Shown in pieces: positions 4,448-41,286 of a stretch of 64,000 nucleotides of DNA. Position numbers and translations under genes: made by a program. Each line of letters begins with the position of its first letter. Within the stretch, counting starts at the first letter, position 1. Source of the DNA: Paucidesulfovibrio longus DSM 6739 (GTDB taxonomy: Bacteria > Desulfobacterota > Desulfovibrionia > Desulfovibrionales > Desulfovibrionaceae); NCBI RefSeq assembly GCF_000420485.1, contig NZ_ATVA01000016.1, positions 64,501-128,500 on the forward strand, in the 5' to 3' direction. Below the pieces are notes generated by a model. The model saw only the letters and a program-made list of their open reading frames with translations, had not been told where the DNA came from and made no database searches.

Positions 4448-5119
4448 TTGCTTTATCTGAACAGCCTGATCCGCGAAGACCTCTTCGACGGCGTCAGCGG
4501 CATCATTTTCGACTGCGACGGGGTCTTGATCGACTCCCTGGCCGCCAACACCTGGTACTACAATACGTTCCGCGCCCATTTCGGCTTGCCGGAGATGGAC
4601 GAGGAACTGCGGGACTACACCCACAGCCACAATATTTGGGAATCCATCCGCAGGCTCGTGCCGGAGGATCGATTCGACGAAGCCTGGCAGTACAAGCTCG
4701 ACTTCGACTATCGGCGCGTCCTGCCGCACATCGTCATGGAGAGCGGGCTGCGCGAGGTGCTCAACTGGATGCGGTCCGCCGGGCTGCGCCTGGGCATCAA
4801 CACCAGCCGGACGGACACCCTGGACCTCGTGCTGGAGCATTTCGGGCTGACCGAGTATTTCCATCCCGCGATCACCTCCTTCAAGGTGGCGCGGCCCAAG
4901 CCGCACCCCGAAGGCGTGCACGCGATCCTGGAGGCCTGGCGCATGCGCCCCGAGGACGTCGTCTACATCGGCGACTCCCGCGTGGACGAGGTCAACGCCC
5001 TGGCCGCGGACGTGCGTTTCTGGTCCTTCAAGAACCCCAACCTGCATGCGGAACTGATGATTCCCGACTACTGGACGCTCCTGGGATTTTTACGCCGCAA
5101 CTACGAATTCACGTGGTGA
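4448..5119 (+). CDS. HAD-superfamily phosphatase (phosphoglycolate phosphatase-like)
   Basis: The 223-residue product has the HAD motifs in order: I FDCDGVLIDS (nucleophile Asp22 and acid/base Asp24), II INTSRT near residue 119, III Lys in RPKPHPEGV, and IV YIGDSRVDEVNA. The helical cap between motifs I and II is type C1, as in Gph and beta-phosphoglucomutase. The start is TTG 4448, preceded by GAGGAG at a 6-base spacing; no better ATG exists. It would remove phosphate from a small cytoplasmic substrate, which cannot be named from sequence. It follows the unknown protein by 13 bases. Confidence 0.85.
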   Translation: MLYLNSLIREDLFDGVSGIIFDCDGVLIDSLAANTWYYNTFRAHFGLPEMDEELRDYTHSHNIWESIRRLVPEDRFDEAWQYKLDFDYRRVLPHIVMESGLREVLNWMRSAGLRLGINTSRTDTLDLVLEHFGLTEYFHPAITSFKVARPKPHPEGVHAILEAWRMRPEDVVYIGDSRVDEVNALAADVRFWSFKNPNLHAELMIPDYWTLLGFLRRNYEFTW

Positions 5120-5223: not shown

Positions 5224-5513
5224 ATGGACCTCGTCATTACCGGGCTGGCACAGCTCGTCCATTTCGTCCTCTTCGGATACCAGCTCGTGGTCATCGTGGC
5301 CGCGCTGATCACCTGGGTGAATCCCGATCCCTACAATCCCATCGTCCGGACTCTGCGGACTCTCACCGAACCGGTGTTCTACCGGGTGCGGCGCTGGCTT
5401 CCGTTCGTGAACATGGGCGGCATCGACCCTCTCCCGTGGTCGTCATTCTCGCCCTGGGCTTCCTGGACTTCGTGATTCCCGCCAACATCGCGCGACTGGC
5501 CATGTATTTCTAG
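5224..5513 (+). pseudogene. yggT: YggT-family membrane protein, reading frame broken
   Basis: The first frame gives 64-66 residues of YggT (MDLVITGLAQLVHFVLFGYQ ... TWVNPDPYNPIVRTLRTLTEP ... FVNMGGIDP), then continues as nonsense to 5475. The family's second membrane segment, SPVVVILALGFLDFVIPAN, is found in another frame and ends at 5513. One missing base near 5430-5438 (GACCCTCTCCCGTGG) explains it: CCTTCTCCC would restore GIDPSPVVV and a normal 96-residue protein. YggT proteins are small two-helix membrane proteins usually beside divIVA and yggU, exactly as here. No classic slippery site is visible, so this is a real mutation or an assembly error. Confidence 0.85.
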
Positions 5514-5532: not shown

Positions 5533-6036
5533 ATGAATCTGTCCAAGATCGACCTGCTCAACAAGAAGTTTTCCCGCACGGCTTTCGGCTACGCGCCGAA
5601 AGAGGTGGACCTGCTGCTCGTGGAAGTGGCCGAGGTGCTGGGCGAGGCCGCTGACCGCCAGCGCGAGCTGGCGCGCAAGGCCAAGCGGCTCGAGGCCCAG
5701 CTCCAGGAGTACATGCAGCGGGACGAAACCCTGCGCGACACGCTCATGAGCACCCAGCGCATGGTGGACGAGCTCAAGGTCGCGGCCGGGCGCGAGGCGG
5801 AGATCATCCTCGGCGAGGCCAATGCCAAGGCGAGGGAGATCGTGCAGCGCGGCCACGAGCGTCTCGCCCAGCTGCACGAGGAGATCGAGAGCATGAAGCG
5901 CCAGCGCAACCAGTTCAAGATCCAGCTCAAAGGGCTGGTGCAGGCCCATCTGGAACTCCTGGAGAGCAGCGATCCCCAGCAGAGCCGTCTGGAGGAGCTG
6001 GAGTCCAAGGTCAGTTTTTTGAAAAAGGCGGAGTAG
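5533..6036 (+). CDS. divIVA: DivIVA-domain coiled-coil protein
   Basis: The 167-residue product starts with the DivIVA N-terminal motif (IDLLNKKFSRTAFGYAPKEVD: the F-x-x-x-x-x-G-Y-x-x-x-E-V-D pattern), which binds curved membrane. The rest, about residues 30-160, is a long coiled coil rich in Arg, Glu and Leu. DivIVA family proteins mark cell poles and division sites; the job in Deltaproteobacteria is less clear. It sits 19 bases after the broken yggT and 3 bases before yggU, the usual order for this neighbourhood. Confidence 0.9.
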   Translation: MNLSKIDLLNKKFSRTAFGYAPKEVDLLLVEVAEVLGEAADRQRELARKAKRLEAQLQEYMQRDETLRDTLMSTQRMVDELKVAAGREAEIILGEANAKAREIVQRGHERLAQLHEEIESMKRQRNQFKIQLKGLVQAHLELLESSDPQQSRLEELESKVSFLKKAE

Positions 6037-6039
6037 GGC

Positions 6040-6354
6040 ATGGGGCTGCCTGAACCCGTGCGCCTTGCGGGCGATGGTTCCTGGCTGCTGAAGGTCTGGG
6101 CCCAGCCCGGCGCGAAGAAGAGCGAGGTGGCCGGCATCTACCAAGGCTGCCTGAAGATCCGGCTCGGCGCGCCCGCAGTGGACAACAAGGCCAACAAGGC
6201 GCTTTTGCGCTTCGTGGCCGCGTCCCTGGCCCTCAAGCAACGACAGGTGAGCCTCAAGGACGGGCACGCCAGCCGCCAGAAAACCCTGCTCATTGAATCG
6301 GAACATGAACCGCGTTGGGAGACCATGGTCCCCGCCGACGCGAGTAACCAATAA
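6040..6354 (+). CDS. yggU: DUF167/YggU-family protein
   Basis: The 104-residue product has the family core: VWAQPGAKKSEVAGIYQG, then LKIRLGAPAVDNKANKALLR, then VSLKDGHASRQKTLLI. This small alpha/beta fold is widely conserved, but its biochemical role is not established. It begins 3 bases after the divIVA stop, so translation is probably coupled. The C-terminal ~15 residues beyond the core are not conserved in the family pattern I know. Confidence 0.9.
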   Translation: MGLPEPVRLAGDGSWLLKVWAQPGAKKSEVAGIYQGCLKIRLGAPAVDNKANKALLRFVAASLALKQRQVSLKDGHASRQKTLLIESEHEPRWETMVPADASNQ

Positions 6355-6374: not shown

Positions 6375-6605
6375 ATGGAACAGGCTGATCTCATTTTGAT
6401 CGAGCGTTACCAGGAGCAGGATTCCGAACTCAGGGCCCTTTGGGAACAACATCAGGAATTCGAGCGCATTCTGCTGAAGTATGAAGGGCGTCCGTACCTG
6501 AGCCCCACGCAGGGACAGGAAATCAAGCAGCTCAAGAAGAAGAAGCTCGCGGGCAAGACCAAGCTTCAGCAGGTTCTGCAAAAGTATCGAGGATCGGAGG
6601 ATTGA
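6375..6605 (+). CDS. DUF465/YdcH-like small coiled-coil protein
   Basis: The 76-residue product is a short helical hairpin ([18 protein letters not shown], then a [20 protein letters not shown] turn and second helix). This matches the DUF465 pattern of H-x-x-x-x-x-I ... L-S-P ... E-x-x-x-L-K-K-K-K-L. The ribosome site AAGGAG is at 6362-6367. The stop is 1 base before ilvB, so it is translated from the ilv transcript or feeds it. The function of this family is unknown. Confidence 0.85.
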
Positions 6606-9943: not shown

Positions 9944-9968
9944 TTGGTCCGCACCGCTCGTTCATTCA

Positions 9969-9996
9969 GCCGCTCCCGAAAGGGGGCGGCTTTTTT
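9969..9996 (+). terminator. terminator after ilvC
   Basis: GCCGCTCCC (9969-9977), a GAAA-like loop and GGGGGCGGC form a 9-pair stem, followed by six T (9991-9996). Confidence 0.9.
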
Positions 9997-10075
9997 GTGC
10001 GCGGATGGTATCGATGCGCTGCGGCCTGGGCACCCGCCGATGCAAAGGGGTGAAACCATGCGCAAGAAAGTATTA

Positions 10076-10104
10076 TTGATCTTGTAACGGATGGTTGCTA
10101 TAGA
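10076..10104 (+). promoter_or_regulatory. probable sigma-70 promoter for the small Cys-rich gene
   Basis: TTGATC (10076-10081) and TATAGA (10099-10104) are separated by exactly 17 bases. They lie 39 bases before the small gene at 10143 and behind the ilvC terminator. Confidence 0.65.
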
Positions 10105-10142
10105 ATATTTGGAATAAGAAACCGACTTCACAGGGGAAGAGG

Positions 10143-10382
10143 ATGGAACACCTGGAAAAACTGCACCGCACGTGTTGGACCTGTGATTACGGAGTCACCA
10201 CGCTGCGGGCGCGGCAAAAGGGCTGGCTGGGCAATGTTCCCCACGGACACGCTGTGTTTTGCTGCCTCCTGCGGATTTCGCATTCCGATCCGTTGCAGGA
10301 CTGCGCACGCTGGAAGGCGAGCTACGACGGGTATGACGCCGTGGCCTCTGCGGAGTTGCCGAAGACCAACCAGGAACCGTAA
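10143..10382 (+). CDS. small Cys-rich protein, function unknown
   Basis: The 79-residue product has an N-terminal CWTC pair, a Gly-Trp-Leu-Gly turn, then CC and a later Cys before ARW (CWTCDYGVTTLRA, HAVFCCLL, LQDCARW). Five Cys and two nearby His suggest a bound metal or disulfides, but no named family comes to mind. AGGGGAAGAGG precedes the ATG directly. A promoter with good spacing lies upstream and the downstream gene is convergent, so it is transcribed alone. It is short, so its being a real gene rests mainly on the promoter and ribosome site. Confidence 0.6.
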   Translation: MEHLEKLHRTCWTCDYGVTTLRARQKGWLGNVPHGHAVFCCLLRISHSDPLQDCARWKASYDGYDAVASAELPKTNQEP

Positions 10383-10469
10383 GCGCGGTTTTCGCGGGGA
10401 GCCTGCCGGGCGGTCAGGCACGGAAGCCCCCGCATCGCAGAATTCCGCTTGGTCTGCGGGGTGGGCCGG

Positions 10470-11066
10470 TCAATCCTGTCCGAGCAGTTCGCGCTTGAAG
10501 CCTTTCCCCGGATCTGGGTCAGGGCCGATCCAGCAGCTCCAAAGCGCATCGGCGAAATCCTTGCCGGGAATCGTATCCCGGACTTCTCCACCAAACTGAA
10601 TCGTCGTGCCCTGCTGCGGCAGGTAGGTGAACGTCAAATCCTGGCCGTCCTTGATGTCGGACATCGCACCGCACAGCTTCTCGAAATCCTTCCTGAGCAT
10701 CTCGTCCGCATCAGGGACGTTCTTCTTCAGGCCTTTCCGCCACCCCTTGCAGAGGTCTTGCCTGTCCACATCCCGCACGAAATGCATGACCATGCGCCGT
10801 GGGGTGTCGGCTGCCAGGATTGCCTCGGCGTCCGAAGTGCGCTGCGGAAGATACAGACCCGCCACGTAGACGTCGAAGACGAAGACCGAGCGCAGCGCCG
10901 TTCCGTTGAGGACCAGCGGCGCGCCGTGCGCATCGGCGGCGTCGGGAAGCGTCACGCCGGCGCGTTCGGCTGCGAAGGCCGTGGAATGGGACATCGACAC
11001 CGAAAACAAGAGGGCGGTCGCGGCGACCAACAGGCGGGAAAGGCAGCGCCAACGATTTCTCGACAT
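10470..11066 (-). CDS. exported chalcone isomerase-like protein
   Basis: The 198-residue product has a signal peptide (WRCLSRLLVAATALLFSVSM ... AFAAERAGVTLPD). The mature part has the bacterial chalcone-isomerase-like pattern: GTALRSVFVFDVYVAGLYLPQ, then PRRMVMHFVRDVDRQDL, and a C-terminal IPGKDFADALWSCWIG. This family shares the plant enzyme fold, but in bacteria the substrate is unknown and flavonoid chemistry is not implied. It probably acts in the periplasm. It is the last gene of a leftward run and faces the small Cys-rich gene convergently. Confidence 0.82.
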   Translation of the reverse strand: MSRNRWRCLSRLLVAATALLFSVSMSHSTAFAAERAGVTLPDAADAHGAPLVLNGTALRSVFVFDVYVAGLYLPQRTSDAEAILAADTPRRMVMHFVRDVDRQDLCKGWRKGLKKNVPDADEMLRKDFEKLCGAMSDIKDGQDLTFTYLPQQGTTIQFGGEVRDTIPGKDFADALWSCWIGPDPDPGKGFKRELLGQD

Positions 11067-11125
11067 CTTGACCTCCAGGGGATCGGCTGAATTTCAAGAT
11101 GGATACGGCAACACGCGGGAGTTGT

Positions 11126-11144
11126 AAAGCGGGTGCCCGCTTTT
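11126..11144 (-). terminator. weak terminator-like hairpin after trmO
   Basis: AAAGCGG (11126-11132) and CCGCTTT (11137-11143) form a 7-pair stem with a short loop in the 175-base gap after trmO. On the minus strand it is followed only by a short T stretch, so its strength is doubtful. Nothing else stands out in this gap. Confidence 0.35.
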
Positions 11145-11241
11145 GTGGGGGCAAGGAATGCGGACACCCGTTTGCCGTCCCTGCGGGGGGCAGTGAAAAA
11201 AGGGGAAGAACGCGGAAGAGGAAGCAGGCGCGGTTGCGATG

Positions 11242-11631
11242 CTAGATCAGCGGCTTGATGTCGATGACCGGAGTGCCGTCGAGGGCTTCCAGCGGTTCCA
11301 CGCGAAGGCGCAGGCCATGAATGGAAACGAGCCTGACCTCATGCAGCCCCACGGGATTGGGGCGGTCGGGCGAGCGGGTGGCGAACACGCCGCGCCGGGC
11401 GCGGGTTTCGTCGCCGCGGGGATGTACCTGGAGCGCGGTCCGGTCGGAACGGTCAAGCCATGTCAGCAAGACCAGCTGCGCCCCGGCCTGAAGGCCGAGC
11501 AGCGCGTCCGCATATTCCGGCAGCATTTCGATGTCGGCGGCGGGAGCACCCTCGCTGCCTTGTTTCGGGGCCTGCTTCCTGTCCTTGAGTGGGGAGCGGA
11601 CGCTCCCGACAGGTTTCAGGATCATGTTCAT
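11242..11631 (-). CDS. trmO: tRNA (t6A37) N6-methyltransferase TrmO / TsaA-like protein
   Basis: The 129-residue product has the TsaA/TrmO beta-barrel signatures: ILKPVGSVRSP at the start, LVLLTWLDRSDR, then RRGVFATRSPDRPNPVGLHEVRL, which is the family's SAM-binding block. It would methylate the threonylcarbamoyl group on adenosine 37 of some tRNAs. ATG 11631 is chosen because AGGAGG is 5 bases upstream; the open frame starts 7 codons earlier, before that site. It is only 28 bases after thiL and likely on the same transcript. Confidence 0.88.
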   Translation of the reverse strand: MNMILKPVGSVRSPLKDRKQAPKQGSEGAPAADIEMLPEYADALLGLQAGAQLVLLTWLDRSDRTALQVHPRGDETRARRGVFATRSPDRPNPVGLHEVRLVSIHGLRLRVEPLEALDGTPVIDIKPLI

Positions 11632-11659: not shown

Positions 11660-12628
11660 TCAGCCGCTGAAGTGATCGAAGCCCTTTGCCGTCAGAGGTT
11701 CGTGGTCGAGCCGAATGCCGGGTTCCTCGGAAACCACGCCCACGATGGCCACGCCGGGCACGGCGTTCAGCAGCGCGTCCTTGCCTTCGGGGGCGCACGC
11801 GCCGAGCAGGCCGTAATCCTCGCCGCCGAGCAGCACGGTCATGGCCGGAATCTCGCCGAGTTGCAGCGCGAGCCGGAGCAGTTCCGGCTCATAGCGGTAC
11901 GCGTGGAGGTCGAGATCCGCTCCATATCCTTGGCTCAGGGCCAGGAACCGGGGCAGGTCGCGGGCAAGTCCGTCGGAAATGTCCATGCAGCCGCGAACTT
12001 CGGGCAGGTCCGCCAGGGCAAGACCCTCGGCGACCCGAGGCCGGGGGCGAAGATGCGCGCCCACCGATTGGGGCCACTCTTCGCGGGCGACGTGGCCAAG
12101 CGATTCCAGGACGCTCAGGCCCACGCGCGCCATGCCGATTTCCCCGACAACGAAAATCAGGTCGCCCGGCCGGGCATTGCCGCGCGTCAGCAGCCGTCCG
12201 CTGCGGCCTGGTTCGCCCCAGATGGTCATGCCGATGCCCAGGAACGGGGAACGGCTCAAATCTCCGCCGACCAGGGCTAGTTCGTGCTCGGCGGCCAGCT
12301 CGCTCATGCCGCTGAAAAAACGGGGCCAAAAATCTGCGGGAAGGCCGTCCGGGATCATCAATTCCAGGGTGAACCCCCTGGGGGCTGCGCCCATGCCGGC
12401 GATATCGCTGACGTTGACGGCCAGAGCCTTGTATCCGATTTCTTCGGGCTGGAAATAGCTGCGCCGGAAATGCACGGTGTCCAGAAAGAGGTCGGTGGAC
12501 AGGCAGATGTCCGAACCGCGCGGAATGATGCAGCAGTCATCGCCGCGTCCCAGCAGCACCGTGTCCGGAACATTGGGGAAATATCGGTCGATGAGTTCGA
12601 GGAAGTCTTCTTCGGAGTGCGGGGGCAC
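11660..12628 (-). CDS. thiL: thiamine-monophosphate kinase
   Basis: ThiL phosphorylates thiamine monophosphate with ATP to give the active coenzyme thiamine diphosphate. The 322-residue product has the PurM-like fold markers: LLGRGDDCCIIP (metal-binding Asp pair), then CLSTDLFLDTVHF, ALAVNVSDIAGMGA, LVGGDLSRSP and GGEDYGLLGACAPEG. The start is GTG 12628, behind AAGGAG with a 6-base spacer, giving VPPHSEEDFLEL. This coenzyme is used by IlvB in the same window, although the link is only metabolic. It is 10 bases downstream of the DUF3179 gene. Confidence 0.93.
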   Translation of the reverse strand: MPPHSEEDFLELIDRYFPNVPDTVLLGRGDDCCIIPRGSDICLSTDLFLDTVHFRRSYFQPEEIGYKALAVNVSDIAGMGAAPRGFTLELMIPDGLPADFWPRFFSGMSELAAEHELALVGGDLSRSPFLGIGMTIWGEPGRSGRLLTRGNARPGDLIFVVGEIGMARVGLSVLESLGHVAREEWPQSVGAHLRPRPRVAEGLALADLPEVRGCMDISDGLARDLPRFLALSQGYGADLDLHAYRYEPELLRLALQLGEIPAMTVLLGGEDYGLLGACAPEGKDALLNAVPGVAIVGVVSEEPGIRLDHEPLTAKGFDHFSG

Positions 12629-12638
12629 GTGAGTCTCC

Positions 12639-13559
12639 TTACATTTCAAGCCGTGTCTCCGGGTGCGCCGCATACCATGCGAACCAGAAAACCTCCATGC
12701 CCTGGGGGCCGCTTTGGGCCGCGACGGTTTTCAGGGCGGCGTCCCAGTGCAAGAGGAGCAGGGAGCCGCCGAGCCGAAGCGCGAGTTCCTGCGGATGGCG
12801 TTCCGCAAAGCCTTGCTTGGGAACGGCGAGAAATTCGCCTCCGCGCTCGAAGACGAGCACCACGGTCTTCGGTGCAAGGGCGTCGCTCCGGGCCGCGAGG
12901 GGGAAAGGGGACTCGTCGCCGACATTGAATTCGGCGTAGGGCGCTTGCGGCGATTCGCTGGAATAGTCGCGCGTATACCCGGTGTTGCGGGAAAGCGCCA
13001 GGGTCTTGGGGTGGGCGGCGCGCCAATCCGCCCAGGTGCAGGCGGTGAGCGGAAGGCGTTCCGCACGTTCGCCGCAAAGCGGACCGCTGATGAAAATCCC
13101 GGAAATCTGCGGCAGGAGCGAACCCGTGTCGCGATCGTAGGCCACGAGGTTGGAGTTCAGGAGCCTGCCGGAAACACCGAGACGAAGGCCGCGAAATGCA
13201 ACCCCGCTCCGGCTGAGAGAGCAATAGGTCACGGCGAGCGGCTCGCCGTCCAGATTCAGATTGACGATTTCGTGCCAGTCCAGAATGCAGCGCGGGAAGG
13301 CCGCCGTCAAACCGGGGAGATCCAAGCCGAGAACCCATTCCGAATCGGGCAGGGCGGCCTGGTCCGCCGGGACAAAGCGCGGGCTGTCGATGGCGGGGAT
13401 GCCGTCCTTGGGAAAGCCGCTGGAAACCATCCGGTCCTGGAGCTGTTCGTAGCGGTCCTGGCAGGGCGAATCCGGACTGTCCACGAAAACGCGCCAGGCG
13501 GCGAAGGAGATCAGCAGAAGCAGCAGAAAGGCCGCGCTCAACTTCCAGTTGGTGGGCAT
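12639..13559 (-). CDS. DUF3179-family protein, membrane-anchored or exported
   Basis: The 306-residue product begins with a hydrophobic segment (LSAAFLLLLLISFAAWRVFV), which is a signal anchor or uncleaved signal. The body matches DUF3179: GIPAIDSPRFVPADQA, then WVLGLDLPGL, VTYCSLSRSGVAF, GVSGRLLNSNLVAYDRDTG and a TLALSRNTGYTRDYSSES segment near residue 190-215. The role of the family is unknown, but it is usually extracytoplasmic. It sits in a leftward run between uvrD and thiL; co-transcription is likely from the 10-base gap to thiL. Confidence 0.87.
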   Translation of the reverse strand: MPTNWKLSAAFLLLLLISFAAWRVFVDSPDSPCQDRYEQLQDRMVSSGFPKDGIPAIDSPRFVPADQAALPDSEWVLGLDLPGLTAAFPRCILDWHEIVNLNLDGEPLAVTYCSLSRSGVAFRGLRLGVSGRLLNSNLVAYDRDTGSLLPQISGIFISGPLCGERAERLPLTACTWADWRAAHPKTLALSRNTGYTRDYSSESPQAPYAEFNVGDESPFPLAARSDALAPKTVVLVFERGGEFLAVPKQGFAERHPQELALRLGGSLLLLHWDAALKTVAAQSGPQGMEVFWFAWYAAHPETRLEM

Positions 13560-13615
13560 GGATTCATCCCCTCAATGCGGTTGATATTGCGGGGAGCATA
13601 GCGCGAAAAGCGTTC

Positions 13616-22106: not shown

Positions 22107-23067
22107 TCAGTAGAGCCAGCAGGCCGCGTGCCGTCCGGGTTCGATTTCCCGGAATTCGGGTTCCTTCCGGGAGCAGACGTCCATGGCGCGGGGGCAGCGC
22201 GGATGGAACGGGCAGCCGGACGGCGGGTTCAGCGGGCTCGGCAGGTCGCCGGTGAGGCTCGCGGCGCGTCGTTCGGCTGCGGGGTCGGGCACGGGAACCG
22301 CCGTGAGCAGTGCCTGGGCGTAGGGGTGCAGGGGCTGCGCGAAAAATGCGCCGCGCGGGGCCTGCTCCACGATGCGGCCCAGATACATGACCGCCACCCG
22401 GTCGCAGAGGTGGCCGATCACGGAAAGATCATGGGAGATGAACAGGTAGGTCAGTCCGAATTCCTGTTGCAGGTCCGCCAGCAGGTTGAGCACCTGGGCG
22501 CGGATGGACACGTCCAGGGCGGAAACCGGCTCGTCGCAGACCACGAGATCGGGCTCCAGGGGCAGGGCGCGGGCGATGGCCACGCGCTGGCGCTGGCCTC
22601 CGGAGAACTCGTGCGGGTAGCGTCCCGCATCGTCCTCGTTCAGTCCCACGCGGCGCAGGGTCTCGGCGACCTTGGCGCGGCGCTCCCCGGCATCGCCGAT
22701 TCCGTGGATGTCCAGTGGCTCGCGCACGATGGACCCCACCTTCCAGCGGGGATTCAGCGAGGAGTAGGGATCCTGGAAGATCATCTGCACCGTGCGGCGC
22801 AGTTCCTTGCGGTCCCATTCGTCCAGGGGCCTGTCCTTGAGCAGGATATCCCCGGACGTTGGCCGTTCCAGGCCGAGGATCAGGCGCGCCAGAGTGGACT
22901 TGCCGCAGCCGGATTCGCCGACGAGGCCGACGGTCTCGCCCGCGTGCAGGGTCAGGTTCACGCCGTCCACGGCGCGCACCAGGCCCTGGCGGGTGCCGAG
23001 CAGGCCCCCGCGCACCGGGTAATGCTTCTTCAGGTCGCGGACATCGAGCAGCAAGCCGTCCTCCGGG

Positions 23068-23075
<8 letters not shown>
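22107..23075 (-). CDS. dppF: oligo/dipeptide ABC transporter ATPase, DppF/OppF type
   Basis: The 322-residue product has Walker [11 protein letters not shown] (residues 52-61), signature [16 protein letters not shown], Walker [13 protein letters not shown], and the C-terminal oligopeptide-transporter domain ending [21 protein letters not shown] with its paired Cys. These ATPases work as a heterodimer with DppD under a pair of membrane permeases. It overlaps the end of dppD by 8 bases. No dpp permease or binding-protein gene adjoins, so partners lie elsewhere. Peptide or nickel cannot be told apart as the cargo. Confidence 0.9.
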
Positions 23076-24048
<973 letters not shown>

Positions 24049-28349: not shown

Positions 28350-29374
28350 AGAAACTGCTTTTGGCGCTTTGCCTGGCCCTGCTGCCCGGCCTCGCCTCGG
28401 CCGGAGGAGAGGTCTACGTCTACAACTGGACCGAATACGTGCCCGAGGCGGTTCTGAACCAGTTCACCGAAGAGACGGGCATCAAGGTCATATACACCAC
28501 CTACGACAGCAACGAGGCCATGTACGCCAAGGTCAAGCTCCTGGGCGGCGAAGGCTACGACGTGGTCGTGCCCTCCACATATTTCGTGAACAAGATGCGC
28601 CGCGAAGGACTGCTCCTGCCGCTGGACCGCTCCAAGCTCCCGAGTTTCGCGAACCTGGACACGAAGTTCCTGAACAAGCCGTATGACCCGGACAACGAGT
28701 ATTCCGTCCCGTATCTTTGGGGCGGCTCCGGCATCATCGCCAACACCGAGATGGTTTCCGCCGAGGGCATGGACTCCTGGCGCTGGCTCTGGAGCCCCCA
28801 GCTCAAGGGCAAGCTGCTGCTCCAGGACGACCTGCGCGACGTGCTGGGCATCGGCCTGCTGCTCAAGGGATACTCCGTCAACGAAACCGATCCGGAGCAC
28901 ATCCGCGAGGCCTACGAGGTCATCAAGACCCTGGCTCCGAACGTGCTGGTCTACAATTCGGACAACCCCAAGTCCGCCTACCTGGGCGGCGAGGTGGCCG
29001 GAGGCATGATCTGGAACGGCGAAGCCTACCAGGCCCTGGGCGAGATGGACACGCTCAAGTTCGTCTGGGCCAAGGAGGGCGGCCTGCTTTGGATGGACAA
29101 CTTCGTCATTCCCAAGAACGCCAAGAACGTGGACAACGCTCACGCCTTCATCAACTTCATGCTGCGCCCGGACATCGCGGCCCAGTGCTGCGTGGAATAC
29201 GGCTACGCCACGCCGAACAAGGCGGCCGTCAAGCTGCTGTCTGCGGAGCTGCGCGAAAGCCCGCTGATTTTCCCGCCGGACGAGGTCGTGGCCCGGTCCG
29301 AGTTCCAGAACGACGTGGGCGAGGCCATTCTCGTCTACGAGAAGTATTGGCACATGCTCAAGGCCGGGCAATAG
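28346..29374 (+). CDS. potD: spermidine/putrescine periplasmic binding protein
   Basis: The 342-residue product has a Sec signal peptide (KKLLLALCLALLPGLASAGG). The mature part starts with VYVYNWTEYVPEAVLNQF, the PotD/PotF N-terminal pattern, and later has VPYLWGGSGI and the polyamine-site region. It captures spermidine or putrescine in the periplasm and hands it to PotBC. Which polyamine is preferred cannot be read from sequence alone. It is the last gene of the operon; a terminator follows at 29410. Confidence 0.93.
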   Translation: MKKLLLALCLALLPGLASAGGEVYVYNWTEYVPEAVLNQFTEETGIKVIYTTYDSNEAMYAKVKLLGGEGYDVVVPSTYFVNKMRREGLLLPLDRSKLPSFANLDTKFLNKPYDPDNEYSVPYLWGGSGIIANTEMVSAEGMDSWRWLWSPQLKGKLLLQDDLRDVLGIGLLLKGYSVNETDPEHIREAYEVIKTLAPNVLVYNSDNPKSAYLGGEVAGGMIWNGEAYQALGEMDTLKFVWAKEGGLLWMDNFVIPKNAKNVDNAHAFINFMLRPDIAAQCCVEYGYATPNKAAVKLLSAELRESPLIFPPDEVVARSEFQNDVGEAILVYEKYWHMLKAGQ

Positions 29375-29409
29375 AGCCGGACCAACGGCGTCCGCCATCG
29401 TGTCGTTTC

Positions 29410-29446
29410 CGGCGGGAGCGGTTTTCGGACCCTCCCGCCGTTTCTT
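29410..29446 (+). terminator. terminator after potD
   Basis: CGGCGGGAG (29410-29418) pairs with CTCCCGCCG (29432-29440) around a 13-base loop, followed by TTTCTT. Confidence 0.75.
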
Positions 29447-29512
29447 GTCCGGCCGGCAGCCGGAGATTGCTTTTGAACGCGACCTGGGCCATGTTCTGGC
29501 CCGGAGGACAGA

Positions 29513-30373
29513 GTGCAGATTCAAGTCTTGTTCAGCGAGTGGGACCAGTACGAATTGCTGGATTCCGGGGACCAGCGCAAGCTGGAGCGTTTCGGCGACG
29601 TGCTGCTGGTGCGCGGGGAACCCCGCGCCTGGTGGAAGCCGGAACTGCCGGAACGGGAGTGGGCGAAGGCCGTGGCCGTGCACGATGATCGGTCCTGGAG
29701 CTTCAAGCCCGGCGCACCCAGAGAGTGGACTCTGGATTTGGACGGGATGGAGATCCTCTGCCGCTTCTCGGAAACGTCCAAGCATGTGGGCGTGTTTCCG
29801 GAGCAGTGGCCCCATTGGCGGAGCCTGCGCGAGTTCGGACAGCCGGAAAAGGACGGCAAGCCCAAGCTGCTGAACCTGTTCGGCTATACGGGCGTGGCCA
29901 CGCTCTGCGCCGCGCGGGCCGGGTTCGACGCCACGCATGTGGACGCCTCCAAGCCCACCGTGGCCTGGGCGCGCCGCAACCATGAGATTTCCGGGCTGGG
30001 AGACGTGAATATCCGCTATCTGCTCGACGATGCGCTCAAGTTCGTCAAACGCGAGGTGCGTCGGGGCAACCGCTACGAGGCCATCCTGCTGGATCCGCCC
30101 GCTTTCGGGCGCGGCCCGCGCAAGGAGCTTTGGAAGGTGGAGGCCCAGGTGGCCGAGCTGCTGGCCGATTGCGCGCAGCTGCTCTCGGACCGTGCCCGGC
30201 TGTTGATCCTGACCATGTACAACACGGACGCCTCGGCCCTGATGCTCAACAACCTGCTCACCGACGCCCTGGAAGGCAAGGGCGGGCGGCTGAGCATCGG
30301 CGAACTGGCCCTGCGCCACACTTCCGGTCCCAAGATTCTGCCGCGCTCGCTTTGGGCACGCTGGCAGGCCTGA
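29513..30373 (+). CDS. class I SAM-dependent rRNA methyltransferase (RlmI/RlmK-like)
   Basis: The 286-residue product has an N-terminal PUA-less region (QIQVLFSEWDQYELLDSGDQ), then SAM-binding LNLFGYTGVATLCAARAG with the acidic residue in HVDASKPTVAWA, and catalytic LLDPPAFGRGP. These are the signatures of 23S-rRNA cytosine methyltransferases of the RlmI group. It would methylate rRNA cytosine, but the exact base is unknown. The start is GTG 29513 behind GGAGG with a 5-base spacer. It is transcribed behind pot but separated from it by a terminator, so it is probably independent. Confidence 0.83.
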   Translation: MQIQVLFSEWDQYELLDSGDQRKLERFGDVLLVRGEPRAWWKPELPEREWAKAVAVHDDRSWSFKPGAPREWTLDLDGMEILCRFSETSKHVGVFPEQWPHWRSLREFGQPEKDGKPKLLNLFGYTGVATLCAARAGFDATHVDASKPTVAWARRNHEISGLGDVNIRYLLDDALKFVKREVRRGNRYEAILLDPPAFGRGPRKELWKVEAQVAELLADCAQLLSDRARLLILTMYNTDASALMLNNLLTDALEGKGGRLSIGELALRHTSGPKILPRSLWARWQA

Positions 30374-30390
30374 GGCTTTCCAGGTTTCCC

Positions 30391-30438
30391 GACGCGAAAA
30401 AGGGCCGCTCCCGAACGGGAGCGGCCCTTTTTCGCGTC
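30391..30438. terminator. long bidirectional terminator
   Basis: The two 23-base arms (30391-30413 and 30416-30438) are perfect inverted copies, each including CGAAAAAGGGCCGCTCCC or its complement, around an AA loop. It serves the rightward methyltransferase and the leftward FTR gene, and is unusually long for a terminator. Confidence 0.88.
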
Positions 30439-30452
30439 GATGCGCGGCTCGG

Positions 30453-30785
30453 CTACCACTTGATCTTTTCGGGCGGCCTGCGTTCGGGCACGACCTTCCG
30501 TTCGATCTTTCCTTCGTTCCAGTCCTTGGAGACGTACAGGCCGCAGAAGCAGGCTCCGAATTCCTCCACGTCCGGCTCGCGGTAGACGCAGGGACAGACG
30601 ATGTCCTTGTCGTCCTCGAACTCGCCGTTGGCCAGTCGGCAGGGGCAGGCCATGTAGCCGTACCGCTGCTTGTTGGCCAACAGGCTCTCCATGAGCGGCA
30701 TGGTCATGCTCATGTCTTCGTTGAAGTAATAGCCCTTGGGTTCCTGAATCTTTTTCAGGGCTTCGTAAAGTTGCCTGGCGTCCAT
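30453..30785 (-). CDS. ftrB: ferredoxin-thioredoxin reductase catalytic-type protein
   Basis: The 110-residue product has the FTR catalytic-subunit pattern: an N-terminal helix (LYEALKKIQEPKGYYFNEDM), then GYMACPCRLANGEFEDDKDI, VCPCVYREPDVEEFGA and CFCGLY. The Cys pairs bind a 4Fe-4S cluster next to a disulfide, which accepts electrons from ferredoxin and reduces a thioredoxin-like partner. In plant-type enzymes the last pair is CHC; here it is CFC. No variable (alpha) subunit gene is near. It follows the glutaredoxin gene by 14 bases, which makes that protein its likely partner. Ribosome site GAGGAG is clear. Confidence 0.88.
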   Translation of the reverse strand: MDARQLYEALKKIQEPKGYYFNEDMSMTMPLMESLLANKQRYGYMACPCRLANGEFEDDKDIVCPCVYREPDVEEFGACFCGLYVSKDWNEGKIERKVVPERRPPEKIKW

Positions 30786-38213: not shown

Positions 38214-40466
38214 ATGAGCGGACTTCTTTGCATTCATGGTCATTTTTATCAGCCGCCCCGTGAAGACCCCTGGTTGCAGTGCATTTTACCGGAAGGAACC
38301 GCAGCGCCCGCCGTGAACTGGAACCGGCGCATACTCGACGAGTCCTACGCGCCGCTGGCCTTTGCGAGACGGCTGGACGATCAGGGCCGGATCATGGAAA
38401 TCGTCAACTGTTACGAGTGGATGAATTTCAATGTCGGCCCCACGCTGCTCTCCTGGCTTGAACGCCGGGCTCCCCAGGTCTATGCGCGCATGCTGGAAGC
38501 GGACCGCCGTTCGCTGGAGCGTTGGGGCCACGGCAACGCCATGGCCCAGGTGTATCACCACGCCATTCTCCCTCTGGCTTCGAATCAGGACCGTCGATTG
38601 GAAATCGCCTGGGCTCTCGATGACTTCGAGGCGCGATTCCGCCGGAGGGCCGAAGGCCTGTGGCTGTCCGAAGCCGCCGTCGATACCTCCACTTTGGAAA
38701 TCATGGCCGAGATGGGCCTGCGCTTCACGATTCTCGCTCCGCACCAGGCCGAGGCCGTTGCCGAGCCGGGAGGGGAGTGGCGCGCCGTGAACGAGGGCGG
38801 CGTGGACGTGCGGCGGCCGTACAGGGTCGAGCTTCCTTCTGGCCGGGATATTTCGGTTTTCTTCTACAACGGTCCGCTGTCGCAGGCCGTGGCCTTCGAA
38901 GGTCTGCTCGCGGACGGCGAGCGTTTCTGGAACCGCCTCTCCAGCCAGGGGGCGGGCGGGCTGCTCAGCCTGGGCACGGACGGCGAAACGTACGGCCATC
39001 ATTTCCGCTTCGGGGAAATGGCCCTGGCCTATGTTCTGGAACAAGCCCGCAACGGGCGGGAGGGCTGGAGCCTGACCAACTATTCGGCCTATCTCGCGGC
39101 GAATCCTCCGGCGCAGCGCGTGCGCCTGCGCGAGGCCACCTCCTGGAGCTGCGCTCACGGCGTTGAGCGCTGGCGATCGGATTGCGGGTGCACGGACGGC
39201 GGCCACCCCGGCTACAACCAGCGCTGGCGGGGACCGTTGCGGGACGGCTTGAACGCGATCAAGTCCGAGCTGGACCGTCACTATTACGAGGCGGGCGCGG
39301 CACTGTTTCGAGAACCGGAAAAGGCCCTGCTGGCCTATGGCCTTTTTTTGGCTCACGGCGTGGAATCACAAGAGTTTCAGCGCCAGCAGTTCAATGCGGG
39401 ACTTTCTCTGGAGAAAGTTGAAATATGCTGGAACTTGCTGGAAATGCAGCGGTTCGGCCTTGCCATGTTCGCGAGCTGCGCCTGGTTCTTCGACGATCTC
39501 GCACGCGTGGAGCCGCGCAATGCCCTGGCGTTTTGTTTGCGTGCGATGGAATGTTGCCGCAACGCCGGCGGGCCGGACCTTGAGCCGTTGTTGCTGGAAC
39601 ATTTGCGCCAGGCCAGACCCAACGACGAACGGTACGTGGATGGGGTGGATCTGTACGGACGCGAGGTGCGTTCCCGGCGTCAGACTCCTGCCCGGCTCGT
39701 GGCCTTGGGACTGATGCAGCTGCGGGCCAAGGGGGAGTTGCCGGAGCCGGGCGGCGAGGCCGTGACCCAATGGATCGGCGCGCAGGTGTCCGTGGCCCGA
39801 TCCGGCAGGGGCAGGGAGGAGCCGAACGCGGAATTGGCCGGAACCGCGCTGGTGCGCTTCCGCCATGCAGGAATGGTTCCGGGCGAGGCCAGGCGTTGCC
39901 TTTGGCGATGGCGCGACGCAGACATGCAGGACTTCTTCGCGGGGGAATTGGCCGTGGACTGCGGTCAGGGCGAGGAAACCGTGCGGCCGCGCGAACTGCA
40001 CTGGAAGATGCGCCAGGAAACCGTTCTCGAGGCCTTGGAGCGCATGGGCAGGAAGGATCGCGCCCTTTTGGAGAGCCAGACCCGGGAGGCGCGCCTCTTT
40101 TTGGAATATCGCGCGCACCAGAACACGCCGCAACTCGCGCCCTTGTGGGCGGCGCGCTGGCCCGCGCTCGTCGTTGCCCTGGCCTGGCAGGGGATCGGCG
40201 CGGATATCCCCGACTTCGTGAACTATCTGAGAGAGGTGGGAGCGCATCATCCCGCGCGGACCTGGCTGGAGCAGCGCTTCGGACGGGAAATGTTCGACCG
40301 GCTGTCCAGCGGGAGCATGGACAAGGGAGAATTGCTGGAGATGCTTGCCCGCTGCAAAAAGGCGGGGCTTCAGCTCGACCTTTGGGGCGTGCAGAACTAC
40401 GTCTGGGAGCAGGGGCTGCACCGGGTCGATGCGGCTCTGGCCGAGGCCGTGAGCATTCGGCGTTGA
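38214..40466 (+). CDS. GH57-like glycoside hydrolase with DUF3536 domain
   Basis: The 750-residue product begins with the GH57 first strand LLCIHGHFYQPPREDPW and has NFNVGPTLLSWLE, GHGNAMAQVYHHAILPLA and LGTDGETYGHHFRFGEMAL (near residue 251). The C-terminal half is the DUF3536 helical domain. GH57 enzymes act on alpha-glucans, often glycogen branching or debranching, but this subtype has no proven substrate. No signal peptide is present, so it is cytoplasmic. GGAG precedes the ATG. It is convergent with the MBL gene and has no glycogen gene beside it. Confidence 0.86.
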   Translation: MSGLLCIHGHFYQPPREDPWLQCILPEGTAAPAVNWNRRILDESYAPLAFARRLDDQGRIMEIVNCYEWMNFNVGPTLLSWLERRAPQVYARMLEADRRSLERWGHGNAMAQVYHHAILPLASNQDRRLEIAWALDDFEARFRRRAEGLWLSEAAVDTSTLEIMAEMGLRFTILAPHQAEAVAEPGGEWRAVNEGGVDVRRPYRVELPSGRDISVFFYNGPLSQAVAFEGLLADGERFWNRLSSQGAGGLLSLGTDGETYGHHFRFGEMALAYVLEQARNGREGWSLTNYSAYLAANPPAQRVRLREATSWSCAHGVERWRSDCGCTDGGHPGYNQRWRGPLRDGLNAIKSELDRHYYEAGAALFREPEKALLAYGLFLAHGVESQEFQRQQFNAGLSLEKVEICWNLLEMQRFGLAMFASCAWFFDDLARVEPRNALAFCLRAMECCRNAGGPDLEPLLLEHLRQARPNDERYVDGVDLYGREVRSRRQTPARLVALGLMQLRAKGELPEPGGEAVTQWIGAQVSVARSGRGREEPNAELAGTALVRFRHAGMVPGEARRCLWRWRDADMQDFFAGELAVDCGQGEETVRPRELHWKMRQETVLEALERMGRKDRALLESQTREARLFLEYRAHQNTPQLAPLWAARWPALVVALAWQGIGADIPDFVNYLREVGAHHPARTWLEQRFGREMFDRLSSGSMDKGELLEMLARCKKAGLQLDLWGVQNYVWEQGLHRVDAALAEAVSIRR

Positions 40467-40482
40467 ATGGCCGATCCGGGGT

Positions 40483-41286
40483 TCAGTCGAATTCGATTCG
40501 CAATCCCGCACGGGTGCGCAGCACTTCGCAATCAAGCCTTTCTTCGAGGTAGTCGGCGGCCTTGCTCCCGGTGCAATGGCCCACGGCCAGCCGCCGCACT
40601 CCGAAATCCTCAAGCGTTGCAGCGACACGCTCCCACTCCGCCGAGTCCGCGTTGAAGAGATGCAGTCCGCCTACAACGGCGTGCAGCCTGTCCAGCCCGA
40701 GCATGTCCCGCAGGTGCAGAAGGCTGTTTTCCAGCCCGGAATGGCAGCAGCCCAGCAGCAGCACCGGACCGGAACGCGTTTCCAAAAGCAGGAACGCATC
40801 GTCCGGCACCGGGTCCGGCAGTTTTCCTTCCGGGTCGTAGCTGAACCCCCGTACCGCCTGAAAGAGGTCCGGCCTTCGCGGAATGTTCGTGAACATGCGC
40901 AGCCCGGGCGAAAGCTCACGCGTGTCGGCCACGGCTTCGAAGTCGGGCAGGGGCGCGGGCGGGCCGATGTCCCTGACGGACTTGCCGTGGTTGTAGCGCG
41001 GTCTTCCCGCTTCGGGATGGGCCAGGATGCGGCCCTTGAATCCGGCGGCAAGCAGTGCGCGAAGCCCTCCCGTGTGGTCGTAATGGCCGTGGGAAAGGGC
41101 GAGTCCCGTCGCCAGGGCCGGGTCCACTCCGAGAGCTTGCGCATTGCGCAGAAAAAGATCGCTCTGGCCCGTGTCCCAGAGCCAGAGCGATCCGTCTATC
41201 GTTTTCACCGCGACGCTCAGGCCCCATTCGGAGCCCAGGCCCGGCGCGGCCTCGTTGTCGCAAAGAAAGGTCAACCGCGTGCGCAT
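40483..41286 (-). CDS. MBL-fold metallohydrolase
   Basis: The 267-residue product has the metallo-beta-lactamase metal site SHGHYDHTGGLR, preceded by LWLWDTGQSDLFLRNA and followed by later His/Asp ligands (GCCHSGLEN, GGLHLF, VGHCTGSKA). It resembles the family of dihydropterin-type and related hydrolases, but no substrate is proved. It lies 22 bases after cimA and is the last gene of the leftward amino-acid operon. Convergent with the GH57 gene (16-base gap). No signal peptide. Confidence 0.87.
   Translation of the reverse strand: MRTRLTFLCDNEAAPGLGSEWGLSVAVKTIDGSLWLWDTGQSDLFLRNAQALGVDPALATGLALSHGHYDHTGGLRALLAAGFKGRILAHPEAGRPRYNHGKSVRDIGPPAPLPDFEAVADTRELSPGLRMFTNIPRRPDLFQAVRGFSYDPEGKLPDPVPDDAFLLLETRSGPVLLLGCCHSGLENSLLHLRDMLGLDRLHAVVGGLHLFNADSAEWERVAATLEDFGVRRLAVGHCTGSKAADYLEERLDCEVLRTRAGLRIEFD

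Follow-up and report, generated by a model that had tools for sequence, protein, structure and literature searches.

Overall, we find that the only copy of yggT found in the genome of Paucidesulfovibrio longus DSM 6739 (G000; 3.70 Mb in 19 contigs, 99.99% complete) is split at positions 5224-5513 of the window, with its head and its tail in different reading frames. The break is an indel private to this genome among those compared, either very recent or an artefact, and does not amount to a novel type of gene. By the window we mean the whole 64,000-nucleotide stretch analysed here, positions 64,501 to 128,500 of contig C16. Judged from its sequence, the locus is an otherwise normal, single-copy yggT with a net loss of one base. 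We consider it slightly likelier that the assembly lacks this base than that the organism does, and give the former about an even chance.

The evidence for the break comes from several comparisons that agree with one another. Codons 1-68 (5224-5427, codon 68 being the GAC at 5425-5427) read as YggT sequence, but immediately after the motif GGID the 83-residue frame departs from the family, and its last 15 residues are foreign to YggT. The missing remainder, PVVVILALGFLDFVIPANIARLAMYF, lies in another frame as 26 codons (5433-5510) followed by a stop at 5511-5513. The Pfam profile YGGT (PF02325) recognizes the head with a score of 43 bits (cut-off 27), over profile positions 2-53 of 70; the 26-residue tail, searched by itself, gave no match in the Pfam profile search. 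When the full YggT of the congener G001 is used as a tblastn query, its residues 1-71 align in one frame (87% identity) and residues 70-94 in another (80%). At the nucleotide level, blastn aligns yggT to G001 with a single gap, one base missing from the window at the break; the alignment to the second congener, G002, has this gap too, along with two one-base gaps that compensate each other close to where the gene starts. Identity of the head to those of the two congeners is 90% and 87%, and each congener encodes an intact YggT of 96 residues, the length that the initial annotation had given for the normal protein. A whole YggT domain carries two hydrophobic stretches in one frame, at residues 11-29 and 72-90 in G001, and the 83-residue frame as written carries only that at 11-29. 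Because the two halves line up in register with a single family protein, chance is not a serious option. The initial annotation had described intact YggT halves in different frames, and this observation is confirmed; it had placed the break at 5430-5438, an interval that overlaps the site listed in Table 1 but lies slightly off it.

Table 1. Coordinates (window numbering) of yggT, its parts and the adjoining genes
Feature	Position	Strand	Details
HAD-family hydrolase gene, intact, upstream of yggT	4448-5119	+	Pfam HAD_2, 95 bits
yggT frame as written	5224-5475	+	83 codons; start ATG 5224, stop 5473-5475
Break site	5428-5432	+	5 bases, against 6 in both congeners (G001, G002)
YggT tail and stop	5433-5513	+	other frame; contains the second hydrophobic stretch
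divIVA, intact	5533-6036	+	Pfam DivIVA, 111 bits, profile positions 1-131 of 131
yggU (DUF167), intact	6040-6354	+	Pfam, 76 bits, profile positions 2-76 of 76
DUF465 gene, intact	6375-6605	+	Pfam, 30.5 bits, cut-off 25

The genes around the broken gene are whole, all four neighbours scoring above their Pfam cut-offs. On the plus strand the order is HAD hydrolase, yggT, divIVA, yggU and DUF465, and divIVA is preceded by its own ribosome-binding-like AGGGG, identified by eye. Among 110 yggT loci, the window included, a divIVA match lies directly downstream of yggT in at least 56 and a yggU match lies nearby in at least 50, both counts being lower bounds on account of short flanks and contig ends. 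Plasmid records yielded three distant DivIVA matches. A search of the window for tRNA genes found none, and an Rfam search of the window returned no match at the gathering threshold.

We next consider how private the break is. Within the family, 270 of 288 genomes have a yggT match, as do all 205 of good quality, G000 included. Among the matches listed, the best-matching named relatives of this yggT include Pseudodesulfovibrio, Nitratidesulfovibrio, Desulfovibrio and Desulfonatronospira, which suggests a bacterium of Desulfovibrionales type. The 110 loci examined comprise 30 from the 270 matching family genomes and 80 from at least 570 confirmed matches. One is the window's own locus (L002), and two of the others, L016 and L038, are the same in sequence, which leaves 108 distinct sequences in the remaining 109 loci. 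Each of these 109 reads without interruption in one frame for 91 residues or more (YggT numbering), including the two congeners (L003 and L004), the only two other genomes of the genus available here. On this comparison, the break is private to G000 among the loci examined. The flanking divIVA and yggU are intact, as the initial annotation had them; the comparison of the same locus in relatives that it proposed gives unbroken frames in the loci examined, and the two explanations it offered, a recent loss or an indel error, both fit 109 unbroken loci and an undecayed tail.

The tail also bears on the age of the break. It differs from that of G001 at 5, 4 and 15 of the 26 first, second and third codon positions, and from that of G002 at 5, 4 and 10; the two intact congeners differ from each other at 6, 2 and 18. 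A long-dead gene loses the preference for third-position changes. Past this break the changes are mostly at third positions, and no relaxed constraint is seen in the tail, which offers only 26 codons, few enough that a recent loss would be compatible with this pattern. At the protein level the tail departs from G001 at 7 residues and from G002 at 8, and the two congeners from each other at 6; this slight excess is far too small to call relaxation. Decay of the tail is not visible in this small sample. Since the tail is undecayed and the other 109 loci are unbroken, the break is either recent or not real.

To place a single break in context, 328.5 kb of contig C16 was compared with two stretches of the G001 genome, a MutS anchor serving to extend the comparison; a first anchor was dropped, having only lesser G001 matches, with 53% identity over part of its length. 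An ORF was counted as lying in one frame when at least 80% of its length aligned with at least 45% identity. By this measure, 241 of the 275 non-overlapping G001 ORFs that match the contig are in one frame (79,615 residues), 3 were flagged as split, 11 are partial and 20 have low identity or cover; inspection one by one covered the flagged ORFs, so a nonsense or truncated gene among the last 31 would have escaped. The comparison with G002 covered 68 ORFs, of which 63 are in one frame, 2 were flagged and 3 are low. Among the three flagged G001 ORFs, yggT is the only true frame split. One of the others, flagged with both congeners, lies over the tRNA-Leu gene at C16:12492-12576 and is not a gene split, and the other is an antisense extension, its upstream half running antisense to the well-conserved gene G001:C4:129569-130336. 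We therefore reject a generally frame-broken assembly, given the 241 one-frame ORFs. The contig begins with 2,500 bases that read as non-ACGT, and the rest of the 328.5 kb contains no ambiguous bases.

Some further observations came out of these comparisons. The window is largely collinear with the G001 contig compared, apart from four stretches, each about 1 kb long or longer, in which blastn finds no match (9944-11250, 12617-13615, 29364-30453 and 39584-40709), two of which contain ORFs, of 286 and 306 amino acids. Outside the window, the gene at C16:12627-13904 (L118) adjoins tRNA-Leu; it aligns with its 539-residue G001 counterpart over residues 1-426 only (83% identity), the C-terminal part being different or absent. 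On the minus strand of the window, at 22110-24048, two adjoining related genes look like tandem paralogues, because one G001 protein matches both, at 72% and 39% identity.

Regarding the cause, we infer a base-call or assembly error, with yggT whole in the organism; the odds of this seem to us roughly balanced. The YggT made by the cell would then be an ordinary one of 96 residues, with both hydrophobic helices. The near-universal presence of yggT in the family, the unbroken state of all the other loci and a tail whose differences still favour third positions, as in a coding frame, all argue for this reading. One break beside 241 one-frame genes is, we suggest, the level that occasional assembly error could give, and in our judgement a single indel set against roughly 240 kb of sound coding sequence is not strange for a draft. 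At the same time, no homopolymer of four or more bases occurs within yggT, so the break does not lie in one, which takes some weight from an error; the same 241 genes show that indels are not widespread in the assembly, and a genuine recent mutation would leave the identical sequence. The sequence alone does not separate the two, and a recent mutation explains the break nearly as well.

We put the chance that the strain itself lost one base very recently at a little short of even. Such a deletion would give an 83-residue product without the second membrane helix, probably non-functional, with divIVA and yggU predicted to be expressed still. The break is, after all, written in the sequence, and the remaining neighbourhood and contig are sound. 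Loss of the gene may also be tolerable: PMC2923531 states that cell division in Streptococcus pneumoniae was not apparently affected when ylmG was inactivated, and reports an effect of the homologue on nucleoid distribution in Synechococcus and Arabidopsis. Set against a deletion are the retention of a yggT match in every good-quality family genome and a count of zero broken copies among the other 109 loci; the mutation would also have to be young, because the tail shows no decay. Nor does G000 have a second copy: among five candidates scored there is one YGGT match and no other in the genome, and a loss made harmless by another copy is accordingly rejected.

Two further readings would preserve the protein despite the break. 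In the first, the ribosome would slip back by one base (-1) from the CCT codon (5428-5430) to the CCC that overlaps it; the tail would again be read in frame, and the product would have 96 residues, with proline where leucine or phenylalanine is usual. The overlapping codon permits a single-tRNA slip in principle, and the tail is undecayed. Programmed -1 frameshifting is nonetheless rejected: there is no in-frame X XXY YYZ heptamer in 5224-5475, the 90 bases at 5426-5515 fold in an ordinary way (z of 0.51, with 138 of 200 shuffles at least as stable), and conservation is absent, the congeners and other relatives (109 of 109 loci) being in one frame with no need of a slip. The residue at the slip position in those 109 relatives is leucine (73), phenylalanine (35) or isoleucine (1), and proline in none. 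Bypass of the break is thus unlikely, and we assign it very little probability. Less probable still, and in our view very unlikely, is a split YggT in which the head acts together with a tail peptide started separately at the GTG at 5436: this codon is in the tail frame and the tail alone includes the whole of a hydrophobic stretch, of mean hydropathy 2.3, but no ribosome-binding site is evident by eye before 5436 and none of the other 109 loci holds a split copy. There is accordingly only a slim chance that full-length YggT is made by an unrecognised slip on one proline codon, or that YggT works as two one-helix pieces.

If the base is absent from the assembly only, as we slightly prefer, there is one gene model to correct; a genuine mutation would make the strain a natural mutant of a conserved membrane gene adjoining divIVA. 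The finding is an ordinary one, and either outcome leaves general understanding unchanged. A search of titles and abstract openings found no paper on the role of yggT in this bacterial group.

In comparison with known systems, the locus belongs with the YggT/YlmG family (PF02325), which its head matches, and it adjoins divIVA, much as ylmG is described beside divIVA in the division clusters of Gram-positive bacteria (PMC2923531). Unlike members of that family, it loses its frame close to position 53 of the 70-position profile, which places the last hydrophobic stretch out of frame. It occupies the same position before divIVA as the yggT genes of the two congeners, with DNA identity of 75% and 77% over about 560 bases, whereas theirs are single unbroken frames of 96 residues. 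Its closest likeness in kind is to recent frameshift pseudogenes and to the indel errors of draft genomes: its frame is broken where those of its relatives are intact, and the break is single-base, private and undecayed.
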